A stretch of DNA of 42,445 nucleotides, taken from the NCBI GenBank assembly GCA_003241815.1, contig QBLV01000019.1, positions 1-42,445 of the forward strand, read 5' to 3'. This stretch comes from Hyphomicrobiales bacterium (GTDB taxonomy: Bacteria > Pseudomonadota > Alphaproteobacteria > Rhizobiales > Beijerinckiaceae). The notes under the pieces were generated by a model. It was given only the letters and a program-made list of their open reading frames with translations. It was not told the DNA's origin and searched no databases. The position numbers and the translations under genes are program-made. Position 1 is the first letter of the stretch. Each line of letters opens with the position of its first letter. Below are positions 3,629-16,814 of this stretch, in pieces.

Positions 3629-5641
3629 TCAGCTCTTCGCCTTGTCTGGAGTAGCGGCGTCAGATCCGGCGGTCTTGGCCGTATCGAACCAGAAGGTGTC
3701 GGGCATGTAGCGGCCGAAGAAGGCGCCGGGCTCGAAACTGTAGAGCCCCTTCTGCGGCACATTGCGCAGGTTGCGCGAGACGACGACCGGTTGCAGCGTG
3801 CCGTTGACGACGCCGATCGCGAAAAGCTGCTCGGCATTGATCTGGAGCATGCGCTGCCAGATCTGCCGTCGCTGCTCATGCGTGGCGCTGGCCCGCCACT
3901 CTTTGTAAAGCGCGACGAGTTCGCGAACCTCCGGCACGTCCGGCTCCTCGCCCTCGCGGCCGCCGGTTTCGAGGAACTGCCCCCAGCGCGGCCAGTTGAA
4001 CTGCGCCGAACTGGTCGGCGCCAGCGCCTCAGGCTCCATATCCGCCGAGACCAGCCCGTTATCCATGCCCGCCCAGGCCGACATGATGGTCTGGCCGGCG
4101 ACGATGCGGCGGCGGAAGACGTCGCGCTGCGTCGAGCGCGGATAGATCTTGATGCCGACGGCGTAGAGATCCTGCTTGATCAGGTCGAGGATGTCGGTCT
4201 CCTCGGTACTCTCGCCGGCGGTCTCGATCGTGAATTCGAGCCTGCGTCCGTCAGGCAGCAGGCGGATCCCGTCGGTGTCGCGCTTGGTCAGGCCGGCCTC
4301 GTCGAGGAGTTTGGCGGCAAGCGCGGGATCGTGCTGCATCCACATCTGCGCATAATCGGCATTGTAGAGCGGGCTTTCTGGCAGGGCGGTGTTGCCGCTT
4401 TCCTTGGCGAGGCCGAAGAAGATGACCTTGTTGATGTCGTTGCGGTTGATCGCGACCGACAACGCCTTGCGATAGCGCAGATCGCGGTTGAGATCGCGCC
4501 AGACCGGGTCGATCGCGTTCATATTGGGCATCAGGGCGAAATAGGAGCCTTCCGCCCGCTTCCACAGCCGGACGTCGAAGTTCATCCGCTTCGAGGCATC
4601 CTTCAGGAACGTGTAGTTGTCGAAGCGCAGATAGCGCGCCTGGAGATCGGCCTCGCCGGCCGCAGCCTTGGCCGGAACGAGCGAGTTGGTGCCGACCGTC
4701 AGCGTGGTTTCGTCGACATAGGGCAACTGCCGGCCGTTCTGGTCGACGCGGTGGAAATAGGCATTGCGCTGGAAGGTGAACTGTTCGGCCGGCAGCGGCG
4801 TGGTGTTGCGCCAGGGATCCAGCGTCGGCAGATCTGGATTTTCGGGGCGATACATGCGCGAGAGCCGTTCGTGAAGCGCGCCCCAGTCTCGGACGCGGGC
4901 CTGCTTGACGCGCGAATGCAGGGTTACCGGATCGGCGTGGTCGATGTGGAACTGCTTCAGATAGCCCGACGGCATGCAGATATAGGTCGGTTGCGCGCCG
5001 GCGAGGGAGGGCAGGAAGATCGGGTTCGGCTTGGCCCAACTGTAGCGGATCTCGGTCTCGCTCAAGACCTCGAAGACCGGGGGTTCGCCACCGGCGAGCA
5101 GGGCCTGGGGCGGGCCGCCGGGAGACAGGCGCCTGTTGTTGGCGACACTGACCCACCAGTAGCGGAAATCCTCCGCCGTAAAGGGCGATCCGTCTGACCA
5201 GCGATGCCCGGGACGGAGCCGGAGCGTGAAGATGCGGCCGTCCTTCTCCTCGTAGCTTTCGAGCACGTCGGGCACGATGTCGAGGTTCTGATCGTAGCCG
5301 ACGAGGCGCGTATAGCCGTAGAGCGTCATCATGCGGATGTCGCGCTGGTCCCCCATCAGCATGCGCATCGTGCCGCCATGGCGGCCGGGCTCGCGCCCCT
5401 CGCCCGACACCTCGACGATGCGGGGCGTCGCCGGCAGGCGCTGGGCGATTGCCGGCAAGGTTCCCGCTGCGACCTGTTGCGCGAAGAAGGGACTGTCGAT
5501 CCATTCTGTCGGGCGGGCGGTGGCCGCTGGCGCGAGCCGCGGCAGGCCCAGCGAGGCGAGGGCGGCCGAGCCCAGCATCAGGGCATCGCGGCGGGTCGGA
5601 CGAGACGAGCGTCGCCGGGTCATCGCCCCTTCTCCCAGCAT
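3629..5641 (-). CDS. ABC transporter extracellular solute-binding protein, family 5 (SBP_bac_5-like), TAT-type signal
   Basis: ORF continues upstream to 5755, but ATG at 5641 (overlapping the stop of the upstream ATPase gene) or ATG at 5623 before TRRRSSRPTRRDALMLGSAALASLGL is more plausible; W(S)DGSPFTAEDFRYWW is a family 5 hallmark. Confidence 0.85.
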   Translation of the reverse strand: MLGEGAMTRRRSSRPTRRDALMLGSAALASLGLPRLAPAATARPTEWIDSPFFAQQVAAGTLPAIAQRLPATPRIVEVSGEGREPGRHGGTMRMLMGDQRDIRMMTLYGYTRLVGYDQNLDIVPDVLESYEEKDGRIFTLRLRPGHRWSDGSPFTAEDFRYWWVSVANNRRLSPGGPPQALLAGGEPPVFEVLSETEIRYSWAKPNPIFLPSLAGAQPTYICMPSGYLKQFHIDHADPVTLHSRVKQARVRDWGALHERLSRMYRPENPDLPTLDPWRNTTPLPAEQFTFQRNAYFHRVDQNGRQLPYVDETTLTVGTNSLVPAKAAAGEADLQARYLRFDNYTFLKDASKRMNFDVRLWKRAEGSYFALMPNMNAIDPVWRDLNRDLRYRKALSVAINRNDINKVIFFGLAKESGNTALPESPLYNADYAQMWMQHDPALAAKLLDEAGLTKRDTDGIRLLPDGRRLEFTIETAGESTEETDILDLIKQDLYAVGIKIYPRSTQRDVFRRRIVAGQTIMSAWAGMDNGLVSADMEPEALAPTSSAQFNWPRWGQFLETGGREGEEPDVPEVRELVALYKEWRASATHEQRRQIWQRMLQINAEQLFAIGVVNGTLQPVVVSRNLRNVPQKGLYSFEPGAFFGRYMPDTFWFDTAKTAGSDAATPDKAKS

Positions 5642-7524
5642 CACGCCATCTCCCGGACATCGGCGCCTGGGCGGGCGAGGACGAAATGCCCGTCGCCGAG
5701 CGGCAGATGCGTCAGCGCCTCGCCTTCGGGATCGCGCCTGAAGGCCGGCGCCCAATGCGTGGCGTCGGAGGCGCCGCCCGGCGCGGCGAGCTTGAAGTCG
5801 AGCTTGCGGTCGAGATCGGCGAAGGGCACCGATTTGAGCAGCGCCCGCGTGTAGGGGTGCATCGGCTTGGAGAACAGCGCGTGGCGCGGCGCGATCTCGA
5901 CGATCTTGCCGTTGGCCATGACCGCGATGCGGTCGGCCATGTAGTTCACCACGGCGAGGTTGTGCGAGATGAACAGGAAGGTCAGCCCGCGCTCGGCCTG
6001 CAGGTCCTTGAGCAGGTTGAGGATCTGCGCCTGGACCGAGACGTCGAGCGCCGAGACCGGCTCGTCGCAGATGATCAGATCGGGGTCGAGAGCGAGCGCC
6101 CGGGCGATGCCGATGCGCTGGCGCTGGCCGCCGGAGAAGGAGTGGGGGTAGCGGTTGAGGAAGCGGACATCGAGTCCGACATCCTCCATCAGCGCTTTCA
6201 CCCGCGCGGTCTGCTCGCTGCCGCTGCCCTTGCCGTGGACGACCAGGGGTTCGCGCAGGATGTTCATCACGGTCATGCGCGGCGAGAGCGAGGAGACCGG
6301 GTCCTGGAAGATCATCTGGACGCGGGGGCGGAAGGCGCGCAGCTCCTCGCCATCGAGACCGAGGACATCGATCTTGGCGCGGCCGTCATCGAAGCGGATC
6401 GTGCCCGCATCGGGGGTGACGGCGCGCATGATGATCTTGCTGACGGTCGTCTTGCCGCAGCCGCTTTCGCCGACGAGGCCAAGGCATTCGCCACGCCGGA
6501 TGTCGAAGCCGACATCGTCGACCGCCAGCACCGTCTGTTGCGTGCCCTTGCCGAAGAAACTGCGCGAGCCGGTGGTGTAGGCCTTGCGCAGGCCGCGCAC
6601 GCTGAGCAGCGGGGCGGCTTCGGCCGAGGTGCCCGGCGACGGGACGGGGCGAGGGACTGCGGCGGGGCGTGGCCTGGCTTCGCGCAGCGCCACCAGCCGC
6701 TCGCCCTCTGCCATGTCGAAATGCGGCGAAGCCTTGAGCAGGGCCTTGAGATAGGGGTGGCGCGGGCGGCGGAAGATGTCCTCGACCGGGCCGCTTTCCA
6801 TGATCTCGCCGTGATAGATGACCACGACCTCGTCGGCCATGTTGGCGACGACGCCAAGATCATGGGTGATCAGCAGGATCGCCATGCCCATCTCGGCCTG
6901 GAGGTCGCGCATCAGGTCGAGCACCTGGGCCTGGATGGTGACGTCGAGCGCGGTGGTCGGTTCGTCGGCGATCAGCAGCGCCGGCTGGCAGATCAGCGCC
7001 ATGGCCAGCATGGCGCGCTGGCGCAGGCCGCCTGACAGCTCGAAGGAATAGAGCCCGAAGGCGCGGGCCGGGTCCTTGAAGCCGACGCGGCCCAGCATCG
7101 CCTCGATCAGGCCGCGTGCTTCCGGCTTCGACATCGGCCGATGCAGCAGCAGCGCTTCCTCGATCTGGTTGCCGATGGTGTGGACCGGCGAAAGCGAGGA
7201 CATCGGCTCCTGGAAGATCATGCCGATGCGCCCGCCGCGTAGCGAACGGATCTCCTTGCCTTCCGCCGGCAGGCTCGCGATATCGATCGGGTTCTCGGGT
7301 GCCAGCGGGTCGCGGAACAGAATCTCGCCGCCGGTGATGGCGCCGGCGCGCGGCAGCAGCCCCATGATCGCCTGCGATATCACGGACTTTCCGGAGCCGG
7401 ACTCACCGACAAGCGCGACCGTCTTGCCGGCGGGAACGCGCAGGCTGACGCCCTTCACGACATCGCGAGCGAGCCCGTGAATGGTGAAGCCGAGATGCAA
7501 ATCGCTGATCCGCAGGATGTCCAT
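5641..7524 (-). CDS. Fused double-ATPase ABC transporter ATP-binding protein (DppD-DppF-like)
   Basis: 627 aa with two complete NBDs: GESGSGKS ... LSGGLRQR ... [12 protein letters not shown] and GESGCGKT ... FSGGQRQR ... [12 protein letters not shown]. Confidence 0.93.
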
Positions 7525-7819
7525 GAACCGCTGTCGCCGAATGGCCTCGTATACGCGTCTGAAGAAGACAACGTCACTAGACGTGGAAAGTGCCGTCTTG
7601 CCAATGGCTTTTGACCGATCGCATCACTCGTCCGGACATTGTCCCGTGCGGATGACATCGGTGCAACGATGACGCGGAGCGGACGCAGCCGTCGGGACGC
7701 TGCCCAACAGCCGCCGGGGCATGGCCGAGAGGGCGCGATGCAGGGCCGATCCGTGATGCCGCCCGCTCCGGCGATCATCTGCCCTGCCTCATTGCGCTCG
7801 ACGCCAAGCTGACACACAT

Positions 7820-10612
7820 ATGTTGATCCCAGGTCAGAAGACGGGCGCGCTGCTGGCGCGCCGGACAGGATATTCGTTGGAGACCAACCTCTTTCGTTAT
7901 GTCTGGGAGAAGAGCCGCGGCGACCAGATCATCGTCCTGCTGATCATCCTTGCCTCGATCCCGTTCTACTGGGCGTCGTTCGACGTCCCGAAGCGGATCG
8001 TCAACGATGCCATCCAGGGCGGCGCGTTCAAGGATGGCAAGACCAGCACGACACTGCTGGATTTCACGCTGCATCTGCCCTCCTTTCTCGGCGGCACCAG
8101 CTTCAAGCTGTTCGAGGGGTTCCAGGTCGGCCAACTCGGCCTGCTGCTGGGGCTGAGCTTCTATTTCCTCGTCCTGGTGCTGATCAACGGCGCCTTCAAA
8201 TACGTCATCAACCTGCGAAAGGGCATTCTCGGCGAGCGCATGCTCAGGCGCATGCGCTACGATCTGTTCGGCCAGCTCATGAGATTCCGGCCGGAGGATA
8301 TCCGCGCGGTCAAGCCGGCTGAGGTCGCCAGCATGATCAAGGACGAGGTCGAGCCGATCGGTGGCTTCGTCGGCGACGCCTTCATCCAGCCGGTTTTCCT
8401 GCTGAGCCAGGCCCTGACGGCGCTCGCCTTCATCATGGTGCAAAGCGTCTGGCTGGGGTCGATCGCGCTCATGATCGTGCTGGCTCAGGCGATCATCATC
8501 CCGATCCTGCGCCGGGAGCAGTTGCGCCTCGGGCGCGAGCGGCAGATCGCCTCGCGCCAGCTTGCGGGCCGCATCGGCGAGATCGTCGATGCTGGTCCCA
8601 CGATCCAGGCGCACGGCGCGACGAGCTATGTCCAGTCCGACATCGCCGGGCGGCTGGGGCGGCTCTTCGACATCCGCTACGCGCTCTACAAGCGCAAATT
8701 CGCCGTCAAGTTCCTGAACAATCTGCTGGCCCAGATCACGCCATTCTTCTTCTATGCGGTCGGCGGCTTTTTCGCGCTGCAGGGTCGGCTGGACATCGGC
8801 CAGCTCGTCGCCGTCATCGCCGCCTATCGGGACTTGCCGCCGCCGATCAAGGAACTCATCGACTGGGACCAGCAGCGCAACGACGTGACGATCAAATACG
8901 AACAGGTGATCGCCCAGTTCAACACCGACGAGACTCTCGATCTCAACGAGGCGGACGGCGTCACGCGCTTGGCCGAGACCGGAGAGATCAGGTTCGACGG
9001 CGTGCAGATGCTCGACAATCGTGGTCAGCCCCTGCTGACGCCGCTGTCTGTCCGGATCGCGCGACCCGGAACCGTCGCGGTGATCGGCCCTCATGGCGGG
9101 GCGCTTGAAGTGCTTGGCCGCATCCTGGGCCGGCAGTCGATGAGCTACTCCGGCCGCGTCATCATTGACGGCGCGCCCTTGTCGCGTATGTCGGTCGAGC
9201 GGGCGAGCCATCTGATCGGCTATGCCGGCAACGAGACCGAGATCATCGCGGGCACGATCCGCGACAATATTCTGCTGCCGCTGATGCGGCGCAGGCCGAG
9301 TATTCGGCCCAAAGGCAAGGTCACGACTGCCGAGCACTATCGCTTCGTCGAGGCGATCCGCTCCGGCAACACGCCGTTGCCGTTCGAGGCGGACTGGACC
9401 GATTACGAGGGCGCCGGCATCGCCGATGACGCCGCCCTGGCGGCTCGCGTCAGGTCCGTGCTCGACGTGCTCGGCTGCGCGGAGGATGTCTACGAGCTCG
9501 GCCTCGACGGGAAAGTCACCGCATCGCTGCGCGCCGAGGCCAAGGCGCAGATCGTCGAGGCGCGCCAGGCCGTTGCCCAGGAACTCGACCGTAGCAAGCT
9601 TGCGGGGCTGATCACGCCCTTTGATCCGGCCAGCTTCAATGCCAATGCCACGATCGCCGAGAACCTGATCTTCGGCGCCCGCATGGGGCCGCGCTTCGCC
9701 AACGAAACCCTGCTGTTCGAGCCCTATGCGTATGCAATTCTCGAGGCGGAGGCGCTGATCGAGCCCCTGGTCGAGGTCGGCTCACGCATCGCCGCGACCG
9801 TCGTCGAAATCTTCGCCGGGCTGCCGCAGGGCCATGCGCTGTTCGAGCGCTACTCGTTCGCCTCCGGGCTCGACCTCGACAGGCTCGGTGAACTCGCGAC
9901 GCTGCTCAACAAGCACGACATGCGCGCGCCCCTCGACGCCGGGGCGGAGCGCGATCTGGTCGCGCTGGCGCTGGGCTATATCGAGCCCAAGCATCGGCTC
10001 AACCTGCTGGACGAGCGCCTGCAGCGGAGGATTCTGCGGGCCCGCGGGAGCTTCAAGGCGCATCTCCCGGCGGACGCAGCCGAGGACGTCCACTTTTACG
10101 ACCCCGACACGGTCATGCTCGGGGCCAGCCTGCGCGATAATCTGATGTTCGGGCGCATCGGTTACGGCATCGCCGATGCCAACCGGAAGGTTGCGGCGAT
10201 CGTGCGCAAGGCGCTGGCGCGGGCGGGGCTCGACGGCGATCTCTATCGGATCGGCCTCAACACCGATTGCGGCATTCGGGGGCGCTTCCTGCCGACGAGG
10301 ATGAAGCTCGCGGTGCCGCTGGCGCAGGCCCTGATCAAGGCGCCGCAGATCGCCGTGCTGGATGTCGGCGCTTTCCTGGCGACGTCGGCGGAGCCCGACA
10401 AGGTTCTGGCCCGTCTGCGCGAACACTGCGCCGGCATGACACTGTTCCTTCTCGTCGGGGATGCTAGTCTTGTCGCTGACATGCCGATGCGGATCGTCTT
10501 CAACGGCCCGTCCGGAACGATCGAGAGCGAAGACGGGGAGGATGCCAGCGAAGCTGCCACCGCTCCTTCCCGACGGCGCAATGGCGTCCAACAGATGGAG
10601 GCGCGGCCATGA
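7820..10612 (+). CDS. ABC exporter-like membrane protein with degenerate nucleotide-binding domain(s)
   Basis: 930 aa; ABC transmembrane domain (about residues 1-350) followed by NBD-like region whose Walker A (GPHGGALE), Q-loop, signature (FLPTRM), Walker B (IAVLDVGAF) and H-loop are all non-canonical. Confidence 0.85.
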   Translation: MLIPGQKTGALLARRTGYSLETNLFRYVWEKSRGDQIIVLLIILASIPFYWASFDVPKRIVNDAIQGGAFKDGKTSTTLLDFTLHLPSFLGGTSFKLFEGFQVGQLGLLLGLSFYFLVLVLINGAFKYVINLRKGILGERMLRRMRYDLFGQLMRFRPEDIRAVKPAEVASMIKDEVEPIGGFVGDAFIQPVFLLSQALTALAFIMVQSVWLGSIALMIVLAQAIIIPILRREQLRLGRERQIASRQLAGRIGEIVDAGPTIQAHGATSYVQSDIAGRLGRLFDIRYALYKRKFAVKFLNNLLAQITPFFFYAVGGFFALQGRLDIGQLVAVIAAYRDLPPPIKELIDWDQQRNDVTIKYEQVIAQFNTDETLDLNEADGVTRLAETGEIRFDGVQMLDNRGQPLLTPLSVRIARPGTVAVIGPHGGALEVLGRILGRQSMSYSGRVIIDGAPLSRMSVERASHLIGYAGNETEIIAGTIRDNILLPLMRRRPSIRPKGKVTTAEHYRFVEAIRSGNTPLPFEADWTDYEGAGIADDAALAARVRSVLDVLGCAEDVYELGLDGKVTASLRAEAKAQIVEARQAVAQELDRSKLAGLITPFDPASFNANATIAENLIFGARMGPRFANETLLFEPYAYAILEAEALIEPLVEVGSRIAATVVEIFAGLPQGHALFERYSFASGLDLDRLGELATLLNKHDMRAPLDAGAERDLVALALGYIEPKHRLNLLDERLQRRILRARGSFKAHLPADAAEDVHFYDPDTVMLGASLRDNLMFGRIGYGIADANRKVAAIVRKALARAGLDGDLYRIGLNTDCGIRGRFLPTRMKLAVPLAQALIKAPQIAVLDVGAFLATSAEPDKVLARLREHCAGMTLFLLVGDASLVADMPMRIVFNGPSGTIESEDGEDASEAATAPSRRRNGVQQMEARP

Positions 10613-11058
10613 CACTCGAAGCCGATATAGCCTGCCTGGGCCGTCTTCCGCTATTCCGGTCGCTGCCGCCGCCGCGGCTGAAGCTCGTCGCACTGATGGG
10701 CGAGAAGCTACGCTTCGAAGCCGGCGCGCAGATCGTCGAGGAGGGCGAGAAGCCGGCGGGGGTCTATGTCGTCCTGCAGGGCGAGGTCGAGATTGGGCAT
10801 AAGCGCCCCAATGAAGAGGGTACGCGGTTGCAGCTCAACTCAGGCAGCCTGATCGGAGACGTGCCGCTCCTGTCCGGGCACAGCTATGTCGGCGCGGTCA
10901 CGGCCAAAAGCGCGGTCAGCGCGCTGCTCCTGCCGAAGGACCTGTTCTTCGAACTGCTCGAGACGATTCCCGATTTCAGCCTGGCGCTGTCGCGGGACCT
11001 TGCCTCGCGGCTGTACCGGCTGGCCGATTTCACGCTGCACGGGGAGAGGGTCCATTGA
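10609..11058 (+). CDS. Stand-alone cyclic nucleotide-binding-domain-like protein (Crp fold without HTH)
   Basis: 149 aa; LPLFRSLPPPRLKLVALMGEKLRFEAGAQIVEEGEKPAGVYVVLQGEVEI and LIGDVPLLSG; ATGA overlap with the upstream gene. Confidence 0.88.
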   Translation: MTLEADIACLGRLPLFRSLPPPRLKLVALMGEKLRFEAGAQIVEEGEKPAGVYVVLQGEVEIGHKRPNEEGTRLQLNSGSLIGDVPLLSGHSYVGAVTAKSAVSALLLPKDLFFELLETIPDFSLALSRDLASRLYRLADFTLHGERVH

Positions 11059-11074
11059 CGGCGCAGGTGTCGGC

Positions 11075-13039
11075 ATGAGCCTGCAGCAGACGGCCGGCGC
11101 GCGGCGTTCGGGCATGGGCATGGATCACGTCTCGTCGTGGAGCCGCGATATCCGCTTCGCGTCGGGCATGGTGCTGCTTTTCTTCGCGACGACGCATTTC
11201 CTCAACCATGCTGTGGGCATCGCCGGCGTCGCCGCCATGGAGCAGGCGCAGGAGTGGCGTTACTGGCTGTGGCATTCCTGGGCCGGAACGGTTGCGCTTT
11301 ACGGCTCGCTGGTGGTGCATCCGTTCTTCGCGCTCGTCCGTGTCGCGCAGCGCCGCACCTTCAAGATGCCGGCGCGTGAGATGCTGCAGATTGCGCTGGG
11401 CCTTGCGATCCCGCTGTTCCTGGTCGATCACATCGTCGGGACGCGGGTGATGGGCAGCTTCTTCGATTCAGATGAAAGCTATCGCGCCGTCCTGCGTCGG
11501 CTCTGGCCCGGCCTGGTGGCGGGCCAGACGATCCTGCTGTTGCTGGTCTGGGTGCATGGCATTATCGGTCTGCATTTCACGCTTCGCTCACGCGACGGCT
11601 ACCACCGCTGGCGTGATCCCTTCCTGCTCGCCGCGATCCTGATTCCCGTCCTGGCGCTGATCGGATTTGCAGTGGGAGGGCGCGAGGCCGGCCAGATGGC
11701 GATGGCGCCCGAGTTCACCACCGACGCGCAAATCGTGATGTTTAACCAGAACGTGACCTGGGCGAAGACCATCTTCTACGGTCTCGTTGGTGGCTTCGTC
11801 GCTTTCGTGGGCATCCGCGAGATCAGGGTCAGGACTACGCGGCAGATCACGGTGCGCTTCGTCGGCCATGGCGTGCGCAAACTCGCGCCGGGCCTGACCG
11901 TGCTGGAGATGTTCCGGCGCTTCGGCATTCCTCACGCCGCGCTCTGCGGCGGGCGGGCGCGCTGCGCCACCTGCCGCGTGCTGGTGCTGGACGGAGCTGA
12001 CAAGCTGCCGGCTCCCGGCGTGAACGAAGCCAGGCTGCTGCGCCGGATTTCGGCGCCCGAGCGGGTGCGCCTTGCCTGCCAGATCAGGCCGCGCGACGAG
12101 TTGCAGGTCCAGATCCTGCTCGCATCGAGGCTGCGGGTTGCGACGTCCGGCGAGGCCGAACTCGATGCCAGCGTCGGCAAGCGCGGCCTGACGGTCGTCG
12201 TGGCTGATCTGCGCGCCTTCTCCGCCTTGTCCGAACGCCAGCTTCCTCAGGAGTTGATCGGCCTGCTCAACCGGTTCTTCGACGAGATGGCGCAGGCGAT
12301 CTCGGCTCATGGCGGGCGCATAGACGCCTTCTATGGCGACGGCTTCATGGCCGTGTTCGGGTTGGACGGCACTCCGGCCCGGGGCGCGCAGGCGGCGATC
12401 GCTTCAGCCGGCGATATCGTGCGCGCGGTCGAGGCTCTGAACCGGGAATTCGGCGCGGCCCTGCCATTGCCGCTGCGCATCGGTATCGGCATCCATAGCG
12501 GCCAGGCGATCACCGGCGCCGTCGAGAACGACAGTCTCGGCCGCCGCGAGATCACGGTTGGCCAAACCGTGGCGGTGGCAGGCCAGCTCGAGTTGGCAAC
12601 GCGGCGGGTGCTGGCCGATATCCTCGTGTCGGAAGAGACGATTCGGACGAGCGGACGCCGCTATCGCGGCACGACGCAGCTCAAGATTGCGATCCGGGGG
12701 CGCGAGAAGCCCCTCAATGCGGTCGGTTTCGCCAGCGCGCCAGAGATCGCCGACGTCGAGGGCGGGGAAGAAGCCGCTGATGCACATGATGCGCCGATCA
12801 CGGCAGACCTCGTCGACGCAGACCTCGTTGCAGCAGGCCCGGACGAGGCAGATCCGGGGGTCGTCGAGGGCGCCGATGGCGTCACGCGGGTCGCCGGGCC
12901 GCAGGAGGATGTCCTGTCGGTCGTGGCGCGCGGGCAGGCCGCGTCGCCTGACGACCTCCCTCCGGCGAAGGCTCGAAGGTCACCGCGCAGGAAGGCTGTG
13001 GCGATGAAGACCGATGTCCCTGGTCAAGACGGACCTTGA
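11075..13039 (+). CDS. Membrane-anchored 2Fe-2S ferredoxin / class III adenylate-guanylate cyclase-like protein
   Basis: ORF opens at 10886 but ATG at 11075 follows the previous stop; multiple His-containing TM helices, then CGGRARCATC-x34-C ferredoxin-type cysteines, then VVVADLRAFSAL...RIDAFYGDGFMAVFG cyclase domain. Confidence 0.88.
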   Translation: MSLQQTAGARRSGMGMDHVSSWSRDIRFASGMVLLFFATTHFLNHAVGIAGVAAMEQAQEWRYWLWHSWAGTVALYGSLVVHPFFALVRVAQRRTFKMPAREMLQIALGLAIPLFLVDHIVGTRVMGSFFDSDESYRAVLRRLWPGLVAGQTILLLLVWVHGIIGLHFTLRSRDGYHRWRDPFLLAAILIPVLALIGFAVGGREAGQMAMAPEFTTDAQIVMFNQNVTWAKTIFYGLVGGFVAFVGIREIRVRTTRQITVRFVGHGVRKLAPGLTVLEMFRRFGIPHAALCGGRARCATCRVLVLDGADKLPAPGVNEARLLRRISAPERVRLACQIRPRDELQVQILLASRLRVATSGEAELDASVGKRGLTVVVADLRAFSALSERQLPQELIGLLNRFFDEMAQAISAHGGRIDAFYGDGFMAVFGLDGTPARGAQAAIASAGDIVRAVEALNREFGAALPLPLRIGIGIHSGQAITGAVENDSLGRREITVGQTVAVAGQLELATRRVLADILVSEETIRTSGRRYRGTTQLKIAIRGREKPLNAVGFASAPEIADVEGGEEAADAHDAPITADLVDADLVAAGPDEADPGVVEGADGVTRVAGPQEDVLSVVARGQAASPDDLPPAKARRSPRRKAVAMKTDVPGQDGP

Positions 13040-13675: not shown

Positions 13676-14338
13676 ATGACACGCGCCACGCCTCCCGACG
13701 CCTTCTATGACATTCTGCGCGGCGTCGCAGCCCTCACCGGCAACGGCGTGGTGGCCGATCTCGCGCGCCTCGTCGCGGACGACATGCCGCCGGATCTCTG
13801 GATCGCGTTCAACCACAAGCAGATCGGCTCGAAGCGCTGGCTGGTCGATGCACTCGCGCAGGTGATGCCGCAACCTCATGGGCCGGTCTGGGTTCTCGGC
13901 GCCTGGTATGGCGTGCTCGGCGCGCTGCTGCTCGACGATAAGAGGCTGGCGATCCCTGCGGTCGTCAGTGTCGATCTCGATCCGGCTTGCGCTGATGTGG
14001 CCGAGCGTCTGAACCGCCGGCATGTCGCGGCCGGGCGCTTTTCTGCCGTCACCGCCGATATGATGACGCTGGATTTCGCCGCCGGGGACCCGGCGCCGGG
14101 CCTCGTCATCAACACGAGCTGCGAGCATCTCGCGGACGTTCCGGGCTGGCTTGCGACGCTGCCGCGCGGCATGCCCGTGCTGCTGCAATCGAACGACTAT
14201 GTCCGCGAGCCCGACCATCGCAGCTGCGTGGCCTCGCTCGAGGCCTTCAAGGATCAGGCAGGTCTGTCGGAGACGCTGTTTGCCGGCGCGCTTCCCACGA
14301 AGAACTACACGCGCTTCATGCTGATCGGCCGGCGATGA
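13676..14338 (+). CDS. Class I SAM methyltransferase-like protein
   Basis: 220 aa; VWVLGAWYGVLGALL ... VVSVDLDPACADVAERLN ... LVINTSCEHLADVPGW. Confidence 0.65.
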   Translation: MTRATPPDAFYDILRGVAALTGNGVVADLARLVADDMPPDLWIAFNHKQIGSKRWLVDALAQVMPQPHGPVWVLGAWYGVLGALLLDDKRLAIPAVVSVDLDPACADVAERLNRRHVAAGRFSAVTADMMTLDFAAGDPAPGLVINTSCEHLADVPGWLATLPRGMPVLLQSNDYVREPDHRSCVASLEAFKDQAGLSETLFAGALPTKNYTRFMLIGRR

Positions 14339-15597
14339 GTGCGTCGCCTCGGCCCGGAAACGAACCGCGCATCGCGATTGCGATGAAGGGCTATCCGCGT
14401 CTGTCGGAGACCTTCATCGCGCAGGAGCTGCTCGGCCTGCAGCAGCGCGGCCTGCCTTTCGCGATCTGGTCGCTGCGCCGGCCCACCGACGTGGCGCGGC
14501 ATCTGATGCACAACCAGATCACGGCGCCTGTGAGCTATCTGCCGGAATATCTGCATGAGGAGCCGGTGCGGGTGTTGCGTGGCGTGCTGCGGGCGTTGCT
14601 GCGGCCGGGTTTCGCGCGGTTGCTGCCGGCTTTCCTGCGCGATCTTGCCCGCGACGCGACGCGCAACCGTTTGCGCCGCTTCGGCCAGGCCTGCGTCATG
14701 GGGCGCGAGCTGCCGGCGGAGATCACGCATCTGCATGTGCATTATCTGCATACGCCGGCCTCGGTGATCCGTTATGCGGCGCTGCTGCGCGGTCTGAGCT
14801 GGTCGTTCTCGGCCCATGCCAAGGACATCTGGACGACGCCGGATTGGGAAAAGCGCGAAAAGATCGCGGGCGCACAATGGGGTGTAACCTGCACGCAGGA
14901 CGGCCATCGCGAGCTCGAGCGCCTCGCCGACCGGGCGGACAAGGTCAATCTCGTCTACCACGGGCTCGATCTGGAACGCTTTCCGGCGCCGCCCCTGCGC
15001 CCGGCGCGCGACGGCACTGACGCCGCCGATCCGGTGCGCTTCGTCACGGTCGGCCGCGCGGTCGAGAAAAAGGGCTTCGACGATCTGCTGGCGGCGCTGG
15101 CGAAGCTGCCCTCCGGCCTGCATTGGCGCCTGACCCATATCGGTGGCGGCGAGAGGCTGAAGGCCTTGCAGGCTCAAGCTGAAACTCTGGATCTTGCCGA
15201 GCGCGTCACCTGGGCGGGACCGAAGGCGCAGGGCGAGGTCATAGCCGCGTTGCGCGCGGCCGATCTGTTCGTGCTGCCCTCCCGGCAGGCCGGAGACGGC
15301 GACCGCGACGGCCTGCCCAATGTGGTGATGGAGGCGGCGAGCCAGAGCCTGCCGATCGTCGCGACCGATTTTGCCGGCATTCCCGAATTCGTGCGGGAGG
15401 GGATCGAGGGGGTGCTGGTTGCGCCCGGCGACGTCGATGCGTTGGCCGCCGCGCTGGCCGATCTCGCACGGGCCCCCGATCGGCGGGAGAGCCTGGGACG
15501 GTCGGCCCATCAGCGGCTGACCGACACATTCGCGGCCGCCGCCGGGCTCGACGCGATCGCGGCCCGTTTGCGTGCCTCCGCCGGGCTGGCGCCATGA
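14335..15597 (+). CDS. Glycosyltransferase family 4 protein (colanic-acid-type)
   Basis: 420 aa; YPRLSETFIAQELLGLQQRG, HLHVHYLHTPASVIRYAALL, FVTVGRAVEKKGFDDLLAAL, RDGLPNVVMEAASQSLPIVATDFAGIPE. Confidence 0.92.
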   Translation: MSASPRPGNEPRIAIAMKGYPRLSETFIAQELLGLQQRGLPFAIWSLRRPTDVARHLMHNQITAPVSYLPEYLHEEPVRVLRGVLRALLRPGFARLLPAFLRDLARDATRNRLRRFGQACVMGRELPAEITHLHVHYLHTPASVIRYAALLRGLSWSFSAHAKDIWTTPDWEKREKIAGAQWGVTCTQDGHRELERLADRADKVNLVYHGLDLERFPAPPLRPARDGTDAADPVRFVTVGRAVEKKGFDDLLAALAKLPSGLHWRLTHIGGGERLKALQAQAETLDLAERVTWAGPKAQGEVIAALRAADLFVLPSRQAGDGDRDGLPNVVMEAASQSLPIVATDFAGIPEFVREGIEGVLVAPGDVDALAAALADLARAPDRRESLGRSAHQRLTDTFAAAAGLDAIAARLRASAGLAP

Positions 15598-16814
15598 ACG
15601 CGACCGCCATGAGCGCGACCGCGCTGATAGCCGTCACCCATCTGCTCGGCAGTGGGCATCTGGTGCGGGCCATGCATCTGGCCCGGGCGTTGGCGGAGGA
15701 TGGCTTTCGCGTCACGCTCGCCAGCGGCGGCATGCCGTTGCGGGCCACCGCGGACGAGCCCTTCGCCTTCGTGCAACTGCCGCCGGTCAAGGTCGAGGGC
15801 GTCGATTTCCGCAACCTTCTCGACGAGGAGGGGATGCCGATCGAGGCCTCGCGGCGGGAGGCCCGGCAGGGCCTGCTTCGCGAACTGGCGGCCTCGATCG
15901 TGCCGGACGTTGTCGTCACCGAACATTTTCCGTTCGGGCGCCGGCAACTGGCCGATGAATTCCTCGGGTTGATCGCCGCCGCGCGGGCTGCCAATCCGCA
16001 CGCGCTGGTGCTGTCATCCGTGCGGGACGTGCTGGTGACGCCGCGTCTTGACCGAATCGCTGAGGCCGAGCGGCGGCTGGCCGAGCTGTTCGAGGGCGTG
16101 CTGGTCCATGGCGACCGCGCTTTCCTGCCGCTGGATGCGTCATGGCCCGTCTCGCCTGCGCTTGCGGCGCGGCTGCATTACACGGGGTATCTGGCTCCTT
16201 CGTCATTGCGAGCGGAACGGAGCAATCCAGAAGGTCTTGCTCTACGTCCCCCTGGATTGCTTCGCTCCGCTCGCAATGACGGATCGGGCGAGATCCTCGT
16301 CTCCGGCGGCGGGTCGGGAGCGGCGCTGCCGTTGTTTCAGCTCTGCCTCGAGGCGGCGCGGCTTGGCGATCCCTCCTGGCGCTGGCGGATTCTCGCCGGG
16401 CGCGGTCTCTCCGAGCGCGATTTCGCCGCACTGCGGCAATCGGCCTCGCCAAACGTCACCGTCGAGCGAGCGCGCTCTGATTTTCCGGAGCTGCTGTCGC
16501 GCTGCGTACTGTCGATCAGCCAGGCCGGCTACAACACGGTGCTCGATCTCGTCGAGGCGCGCTGTCGCGCCATCGTCGTGCCTTTCGACGAGGGCGCCGA
16601 AACCGAGCAGGGGATACGCGCGGAGGCGCTGGAGCGGGCCGGATTGGCGCGTTGCATGCGGCTTTCGGGGCCGCAAGCCGCTTCGTCGGCGTCCTTCGCG
16701 GCCGCGGTCGCCACGGCTTTGGCCGATGACGCTCCGGCCTGCGCGGCGATCGATCGTGATGGCGCGGGACAGGTCTGCGCCCTCGTGAAGCGGTTGCTGG
16801 AGCAGCGCGGCTGA
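15594..16814 (+). CDS. MurG/GT28-like glycosyltransferase, interrupted in frame by a palindromic repeat
   Basis: 406 aa; THLLGSGHLVRAMHLARALAEDGFRVTLASGG and C-terminal SISQAGYNTVLDLVEARCRAIVVPF typical of GT28 C-terminal domain; ATGA-type overlap with the previous gene. Confidence 0.82.
   Translation: MNATAMSATALIAVTHLLGSGHLVRAMHLARALAEDGFRVTLASGGMPLRATADEPFAFVQLPPVKVEGVDFRNLLDEEGMPIEASRREARQGLLRELAASIVPDVVVTEHFPFGRRQLADEFLGLIAAARAANPHALVLSSVRDVLVTPRLDRIAEAERRLAELFEGVLVHGDRAFLPLDASWPVSPALAARLHYTGYLAPSSLRAERSNPEGLALRPPGLLRSARNDGSGEILVSGGGSGAALPLFQLCLEAARLGDPSWRWRILAGRGLSERDFAALRQSASPNVTVERARSDFPELLSRCVLSISQAGYNTVLDLVEARCRAIVVPFDEGAETEQGIRAEALERAGLARCMRLSGPQAASSASFAAAVATALADDAPACAAIDRDGAGQVCALVKRLLEQRG
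16201..16281. repeat. 81-bp palindromic repeat (cgtcattgcgagcgg..ctggattgcttcgctccgctcgcaatgacg) inside a CDS
   Basis: 30-nt arms 16201-16230 and 16252-16281 are inverted repeats with 28/30 identity; total length divisible by 3. Confidence 0.92.

Follow-up and report, generated by a model that had tools for sequence, protein, structure and literature searches.

Can three proteins from nucleotide-handling families, each with substitutions at residues that its canonical activity needs, still form a working signalling system? The question is raised by an operon of an ABC-exporter-like protein, a cNMP-binding-fold (CNB) protein and a membrane cyclase in a 42,445-nucleotide stretch of DNA (the window, contig QBLV01000019.1) from a genome of the type of Bosea, a genus of soil bacteria. 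An earlier note had read this trio as a repurposed, conserved complex in which a membrane redox sensor is coupled to the ABC-type protein through a Crp-like adaptor.

Here, we compare the trio with its counterparts in Bosea and other Alphaproteobacteria and conclude, at a probability of roughly 0.5, that it evolved from a cAMP relay into a conserved membrane redox-signalling module in which protein contact has taken the place of the cAMP step.

Layout and conservation of the operon

The three open reading frames lie on one shared strand of the window (Table 1), and Pfam assigns ABC_membrane to the first, cNMP_binding to the second, and Fer2 plus Guanylate_cyc to the third. This bears out the view that all three come from nucleotide-handling families with recognizable folds, as do the AlphaFold2 (AF2) models of the ABC and cyclase proteins. 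Our ORF check also recovered the coupling previously described at the same coordinates: the ABC frame, called from 7820 to 10612, overlaps the CNB gene in an ATGA at 10609–10612, and a 16-nt gap (11059–11074) leads on to the cyclase gene.

Table 1. Features of the trio and its surroundings, in window coordinates.
Feature	Coordinates	Strand	Remarks
Dual-ATPase protein, oligopeptide/Yej-type ABC importer	5641..7524	-	PF00005 x2 + oligo_HPY; divergent from the trio
Promoter-like element, conserved	7791..7822	+	ATTGCG...CACATATG; precedes the ABC gene; includes the ATG of the naive ORF call
ABC-exporter-like protein, probable pseudo-ATPase	7874..10612	+	912 aa from TTG 7874; 930 aa from ATG 7820
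CNB-fold protein, stand-alone	10609..11058	+	149 aa; PF00027
CyaC-type protein	11075..13039	+	654 aa; PF00111 + PF00211
Protein without Pfam match	13676-14338	+	220 aa; Pfam search
GT4 glycosyltransferase	14335-15597	+	Pfam
GT28-like glycosyltransferase	15594-16814	+	Pfam

The true start of the ABC gene is most likely TTG 7874 rather than ATG 7820, because codon 7874 is conserved as a start (nearly all Bosea have TTG there, one has GTG, and several relatives have ATG), stop codons interrupt the preceding frame in some Bosea, and ATG 7820 falls at the end of the promoter-like element, where some Bosea species do not have it. This element is the top-conserved intergenic block across 41 Bosea loci and presumably acts as a promoter.

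The ABC gene was found in 45 of the 51 sampled Bosea genomes, that of the window included, and at each of the 40 other Bosea loci that we took out the trio is contiguous and in the same gene order. All ORFs are intact in 40 of the 41 Bosea loci; in the exception, L190, the cyclase ORF is split over two frames, through either an assembly error or a mutation.

All three Bosea proteins are under purifying selection. By pairwise Nei-Gojobori comparison, a simple method applied here to non-independent pairs but sufficient to exclude values near 1, median dN/dS was 0.21 in the transmembrane domain (TMD) and 0.36 in the nucleotide-binding-domain-like (NBD-like) part of the ABC protein, 0.40 in the CNB protein, and 0.32, 0.18 and 0.22 in the six-helix transmembrane (6TM), Fer2 and pseudo-cyclase domains of the third protein. 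Canonical cyclase domains gave 0.14 in Microvirga and 0.18 in Stappia, and the pseudo-cyclase domain elsewhere gave 0.03 in Labrys and 0.32 in Ancylobacter.

An ABC exporter fold with substituted ATPase motifs

In the first protein, ABC_membrane (PF00664) is the sole Pfam match, and no ABC_tran match appeared even at E<=1. A profile of 48 relatives matched PDB structures of ABC exporters, its NBD aligning as two separate halves, and a segment of ~290 residues is therefore inserted in the NBD, leaving a TMD at residues ~24-367, an N-terminal NBD part at ~373-492 and a C-terminal part at ~786-913. The AF2 model (mean pLDDT 83.8) likewise has an ABC exporter fold, with Foldseek matches to Atm1, TmrAB and P-gp. 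At residues ~480, 612 and 772 the window protein carries three Q-loop-like segments ending [DE]N[IL][LIM][LF].., and their repetition suggests partial NBD duplications within the insert.

Walker A, signature, Walker B and H-loop are all degenerate in the window protein. Where GxxGxGK[ST] would be expected, Walker A reads GPHGGALE, without K and without S/T; the signature is LPTRM instead of LSGGQ, Walker B is VLDV without the Glu of the Asp-Glu pair, and no H-loop His occurs at 876-880. In eleven of the 41 Bosea proteins the Walker A Lys is present, but the next residue is always D or G, never S/T. Across 181 aligned members of the ABC family, the Walker A Lys is present in 39, the Walker B Asp-Glu pair in 4, LSGGQ in 1 and GK[ST] in none, while 47 columns, mostly in the TMD, are invariant over 48 diverse members. 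Sampling of 298 genomes from the order and 289 from the class gave matches to this family in 99 and 98 of them, respectively. Judged from these alignments, the degeneracy of the ABC protein is old and class-wide in Alphaproteobacteria. The family-wide loss of Walker A, signature and Walker B makes ATP hydrolysis improbable for the whole family, and the ATPase of the window protein is very probably dead; since the Walker A Lys persists in part of Bosea, the ABC protein may still bind nucleotide.

A putative redox sensor joined to half of a cyclase site

The third protein comprises a 6TM haem-b type domain (residues ~20-250), a Fer2 domain (~265-350), a pseudo-cyclase domain (~365-558) and a disordered C-terminal tail. 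The haem ligands H41, H82, H119 and H161 and the [2Fe-2S] ligands C291, C297, C300 and C335 are invariant in 87 of 87 homologues, and the helices of the haem domain are present in the AF2 model. Both hallmarks of CyaC-type proteins, the 6TM four-His domain and the four-Cys ferredoxin domain, are therefore in place and support a putative haem b/[2Fe-2S] redox sensor. The membrane redox sensor of the earlier note has a precedent in CyaC of Sinorhizobium meliloti, which holds two haem b, responds to quinone and carries a [2Fe-2S] cluster (PMC10463352). Labrys loci encode, near the trio, an extra protein that combines 6TM and Fer2 regions but gives no match to a cyclase domain (L064:647-1849, L066:837-2330).

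The cyclase domain retains its fold, with pLDDT >90 over most folded parts of the model and a class III architecture (TMt ~0.8 to 1wc1/2w01, the closest structures). A competent homodimeric cyclase needs two Asp, Lys/Thr and Asn/Arg; the window protein has D378 and D422, with K418->A, T493->I, N500->A and R504->Q. Position 493, by alignment to 2w01, is the substrate-specifying residue and is T in canonical relatives. All 40 intact Bosea copies are substituted at K, T, N and R, with Ala/Ser at the Lys, Ile at the substrate Thr, Met/Ala/Thr at the Asn and Gln at the Arg. The metal-binding Asp, by contrast, are kept in 52 of 52 and 51 of 52 degenerate cyclases, the sole exception being the frame-broken L190. 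With both metal Asp intact, one half only of the cyclase active site has been lost. The cAMP-making domain of Bosea is very probably dead by these residues; the earlier claim that all three proteins are substituted at the residues they need thus stands for the motifs as a whole and fails for the two cyclase Asp and for the Walker A Lys of eleven Bosea proteins.

The retained metal half makes a C1-like half-cyclase the main rival to a contact relay. Mammalian C1 and C2 domains build a heterodimeric cyclase site, and in the same manner the Bosea Asp half could join the Lys/Thr/Asn/Arg half of another class III cyclase in one heterodimeric, redox-controlled site. Such a role would explain why the Asp persist where the complementary residues are gone and why the domain is under purifying selection, and the genome of the window does encode one further Guanylate_cyc protein, whose K, N and R are canonical. 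However, that protein lacks a 6TM/Fer2 region and is encoded on another contig, D378 sits within a wholly invariant DxRxF motif and may be structural, and the CNB protein of the trio is an unlikely reader of cAMP made in this way in Bosea. We consider a C1-like half less likely than the contact relay, though its most serious competitor.

It is also doubtful that the proteins are active enzymes of an unorthodox kind, with the cyclase, the ABC ATPase or both working despite the substitutions and the CNB protein binding another ligand. Some natural class III cyclases tolerate substitutions, and this reading can draw on that tolerance, on the intact AF2 folds, on the metal Asp, and on the Walker A Lys of 11 Bosea proteins and of many members class-wide. 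It has to contend with the joint replacement of K, T, N and R in Bosea, with the absence of GK[ST] and near absence of LSGGQ from the entire ABC family, and with the lack of any conserved replacement resembling a known alternative catalytic set.

The CNB protein and its partnership with the ABC family

The only Pfam match of the second protein is PF00027 (E 4.9e-14), in keeping with a cNMP-binding fold; Pfam found no HTH DNA-binding domain in its 149 residues, so it does not qualify as a CRP-like transcription factor. Its phosphate-binding cassette has also diverged. The window cassette, IGDVPLLSGHSYVGAV, has no Arg, with Tyr93 at the Arg site, and in the Bosea trio proteins GE has become GD, so that GE...R reads GD...Y/F (GD...Y in the window). 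The phosphate-binding Arg is absent from all 40 Bosea trio CNBs and present in 85 of 89 outside Bosea.

A second ABC-CNB paralogue, in which a degenerate ABC protein and a canonical CNB domain form one chain of 1023-1103 aa, is found in Bosea and Labrys (loci L330-L337, L074-L076 and L079), sometimes with a further cyclase gene nearby. In 8 of 8 Bosea genomes examined by blastp, these fusion paralogues keep the canonical cassette (e.g. GEMGIVTGEPRSATI). A loss of the Arg across Bosea CNBs generally is thereby ruled out, and the change is limited to the trio copy.

The CNB gene directly follows the ABC gene in nearly all full loci examined, and it is fused to the ABC C-terminus in L074, L075, L116 and Ruegeria L248, Labrys being among the lineages with fusions. 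Gene order and fusions in several lineages identify the CNB protein as a standing partner of the degenerate ABC family, upholding the link between the two drawn in the earlier note. In many distant loci the CNB gene is separated from a gene for a soluble cyclase by one of the metallo-beta-lactamase fold (a cluster in 44 loci; L123:5630-6964).

Order of the losses

Contrary to the joint degeneration supposed in the earlier note, the three losses did not occur together. A tree of 61 cyclase proteins places all 26 degenerate copies in one clade, requiring one change, with support of 100/97. The same clade was recovered in a quick search on the sensor columns only (89 SH-aLRT), which rules out an artefact of the catalytic columns. 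It unites Bosea, Labrys, Ancylobacter, uncultured Hyphomicrobiales and several members of the family to which Bosea belongs; the Ancylobacter rows were assigned by motif, outside the 61-protein tree. Of its 26 rows, 25 come from ABC-linked loci and the remaining one, L039, from a 7-kb contig. The pattern recurs across a set of 80 named loci, where degenerate copies of this kind are nearly all ABC-linked and canonical copies mostly unlinked. The tree left out L285, L298, L318 and L297, which are unlinked and carry other substitutions, and L282, which is ABC-linked and partly degenerate. Among these, L282 has V/L substitutions in its CyaC-type cyclase, and L285, L298 and L318, from Rokuibacteriota/Betaproteobacteria MAGs, have Q/H at the Lys/Asn positions. 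On this phylogeny, the Lys and the transition-state Asn of the cyclase disappeared in one event, in one clade linked to the ABC gene, and the metal Asp stayed.

Within the trio loci, loss of the CNB Arg accompanies a degenerate cyclase only, being seen in Bosea and in one related locus, L225, and in 0 of the 13 trio loci whose cyclase is canonical. Several sister lineages have a degenerate cyclase yet a canonical CNB protein, which may therefore still receive cAMP there. The class-wide ABC loss, the single-clade cyclase loss and the nested CNB loss together point to a stepwise order, likely the ABC protein first and anciently, the cyclase second and the CNB protein third.

Canonical homologues, which the earlier note had said would mark the state as local decay, do exist for the cyclase (35 of 46 non-Bosea sequences have the canonical Lys, Asn and Arg) and for the CNB protein, as counted above; for the ABC protein all 181 members lack GK[ST]. 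Because the Bosea state is common to some 40 species, it is not a local decay, which the 40 further loci and the dN/dS values rule out. A broader relaxation of selection, or decay following the loss of cAMP signalling at this locus, would fit the missing catalytic residues and the variation among Met, Ala and Thr at position 500, but is very improbable given that dN/dS is well under 1 for every domain across many pairs of species, the intact ORFs, and the fixation of the replacements themselves (Q504, I493 and T494 each in 40/40 Bosea cyclases; the signature residue P825 in 41/41 ABC proteins). Two checks proposed in the earlier note, a search for the trio in other genomes and a test of dN/dS and of conservation of the substitutions, thus both favour a repurposed conserved complex over decay: the trio is contiguous at 40 further loci, the medians span 0.18-0.40, and R504->Q and the CNB Arg loss are found in 40/40.

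Genomic neighbourhood

The gene at 5641..7524 begins an oligopeptide/Yej-type importer operon that continues to ~255, and importer homologues lie beside the module in L067-L069, L230, L232, R. etli pA and Phyllobacterium. Homologues of the genes at 13676-16814, on the other side of the trio, adjoin the ABC gene in distant Hyphomicrobiales (L067, L103, L116, L247, L249), with redA/redB of R. etli among them. On R. etli plasmid pA the order is oligopeptide ABC operon, redA, redB glycosyltransferase, second glycosyltransferase, ABC, CNB; Phyllobacterium has the same arrangement, and an S. meliloti pSymB copy, probably the SMb20813-type 'MsbA homologue', has similar genes around it. Since these neighbours recur beside ABC and CNB genes far outside Bosea, the output of the module is likely an envelope function that concerns a glycan or the transport of peptides.

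The same neighbourhood could be read with the ABC and CNB proteins as the functional core, a cAMP- or ligand-gated transporter or scaffold of a glycan/peptide locus, to which the CyaC-like gene was recruited as a lineage-specific redox receptor with its pseudo-cyclase as a mere dimerization handle. Many loci have no adjacent CyaC gene, the two core proteins are fused in some, and the glycosyltransferase and oligopeptide ABC neighbours suit such a core. We nonetheless find it improbable, as in Bosea the pseudo-cyclase evolves under tighter constraint than the membrane domain (0.22 vs 0.32) and retains its metal Asp.

Proposed relay and its implications

In the contact relay that we favour, the redox state of quinone and the respiratory chain would alter the state of the sensor haem and Fe-S cluster, and the pseudo-cyclase, perhaps with ATP/Mg bound and uncyclized, would transmit the conformational change to the CNB protein by protein-protein contact. 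The Arg-less CNB protein would then set the conformation of the ABC-like protein, which may serve the neighbouring glycan/peptide-transport locus as a gated scaffold or channel and not as an ATP-driven pump. At ancestral-type loci with canonical cyclase and CNB, the same chain would run via locally made cAMP. The step from pseudo-cyclase to CNB is inferred by analogy, and we prefer contact because physical contact has been described in S. meliloti between CyaC and Clr, a CNB protein of the CRP-like kind (PMC10463352).

Conserved gene order, low dN/dS, invariant sensor ligands, the ABC-linked loss of the cyclase, the loss of the CNB Arg nested within it, the ABC-CNB fusions and the intact AF2 folds support this relay. 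Against it, the retention of the metal Asp exceeds what a pure scaffold needs and fits a C1-like half, and the canonical CNB proteins of sister lineages and the Walker A Lys of some Bosea sit uneasily with it. The fullest form of the contact relay, in which a complete second-messenger relay was turned stepwise and under selection into a messenger-free contact relay of former enzyme, receptor and transporter, is more tentative, and we would give it less than even odds.

Searches of the open-access literature on bacterial pseudo-cyclases, the trio operon, redA/redB and degenerate ABC-CNB proteins returned nothing relevant; the families of the parts are known, and we did not find the module, the class-wide degenerate ABC family or the stepwise loss of cAMP chemistry described there. 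The loci would represent an undescribed alphaproteobacterial signalling module in which an ABC-fold protein, with ATP hydrolysis very probably abandoned, is joined by a cAMP-receptor domain and, in a number of genera, also by a redox sensor of the haem/Fe-S type. The stages seem to be preserved among living relatives (canonical cyclase with canonical CNB, pseudo-cyclase with canonical CNB, pseudo-cyclase with Arg-less CNB), which makes the evolution from second messenger to contact, with the sensor kept, directly testable. The module would also give a function to genes of rhizobia and relatives annotated 'ABC transporter ATP-binding protein' (MsbA-like), probably a wrong name for this degenerate family.

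Comparison with known systems

The ABC protein shares its TMD family and overall fold with type IV (MsbA/Atm1/TmrAB-like) exporters, but its NBD is split by the insert, the Walker A of its family is never GK[ST], the signature, Walker B Glu and H-loop are gone, and a CNB protein is its partner or fusion. With CRP/FNR-type cNMP receptors the Bosea CNB protein has the cNMP-binding fold in common, whereas it shows no DNA-binding domain match and both the Glu and the Arg of its cassette are replaced. Like mammalian membrane adenylyl cyclase C1 domains, the Bosea cyclase domain has the metal Asp and lacks the complementary half; unlike them, it has no C2 partner in its chain or operon, and the homology is at class III level only.

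The rhizobial SMb20813-type loci (R. etli pA RHECIAT_PA0000037) combine Bosea's ABC family with a CNB protein, glycosyltransferases and an oligopeptide ABC operon; the R. etli locus differs in having no adjacent CyaC-type gene. The closest likeness for the sensor is S. meliloti CyaC (SMc01818), whose domain order of 6TM His tetrad, Fer2 and class III cyclase is that of the Bosea protein. CyaC, however, is an active cyclase whose gene reportedly neighbours a TetR gene, cycR (PMC10463352), whereas its Bosea counterpart is without the Lys/Thr/Asn/Arg half of the site and resides in an operon with the ABC and CNB genes.
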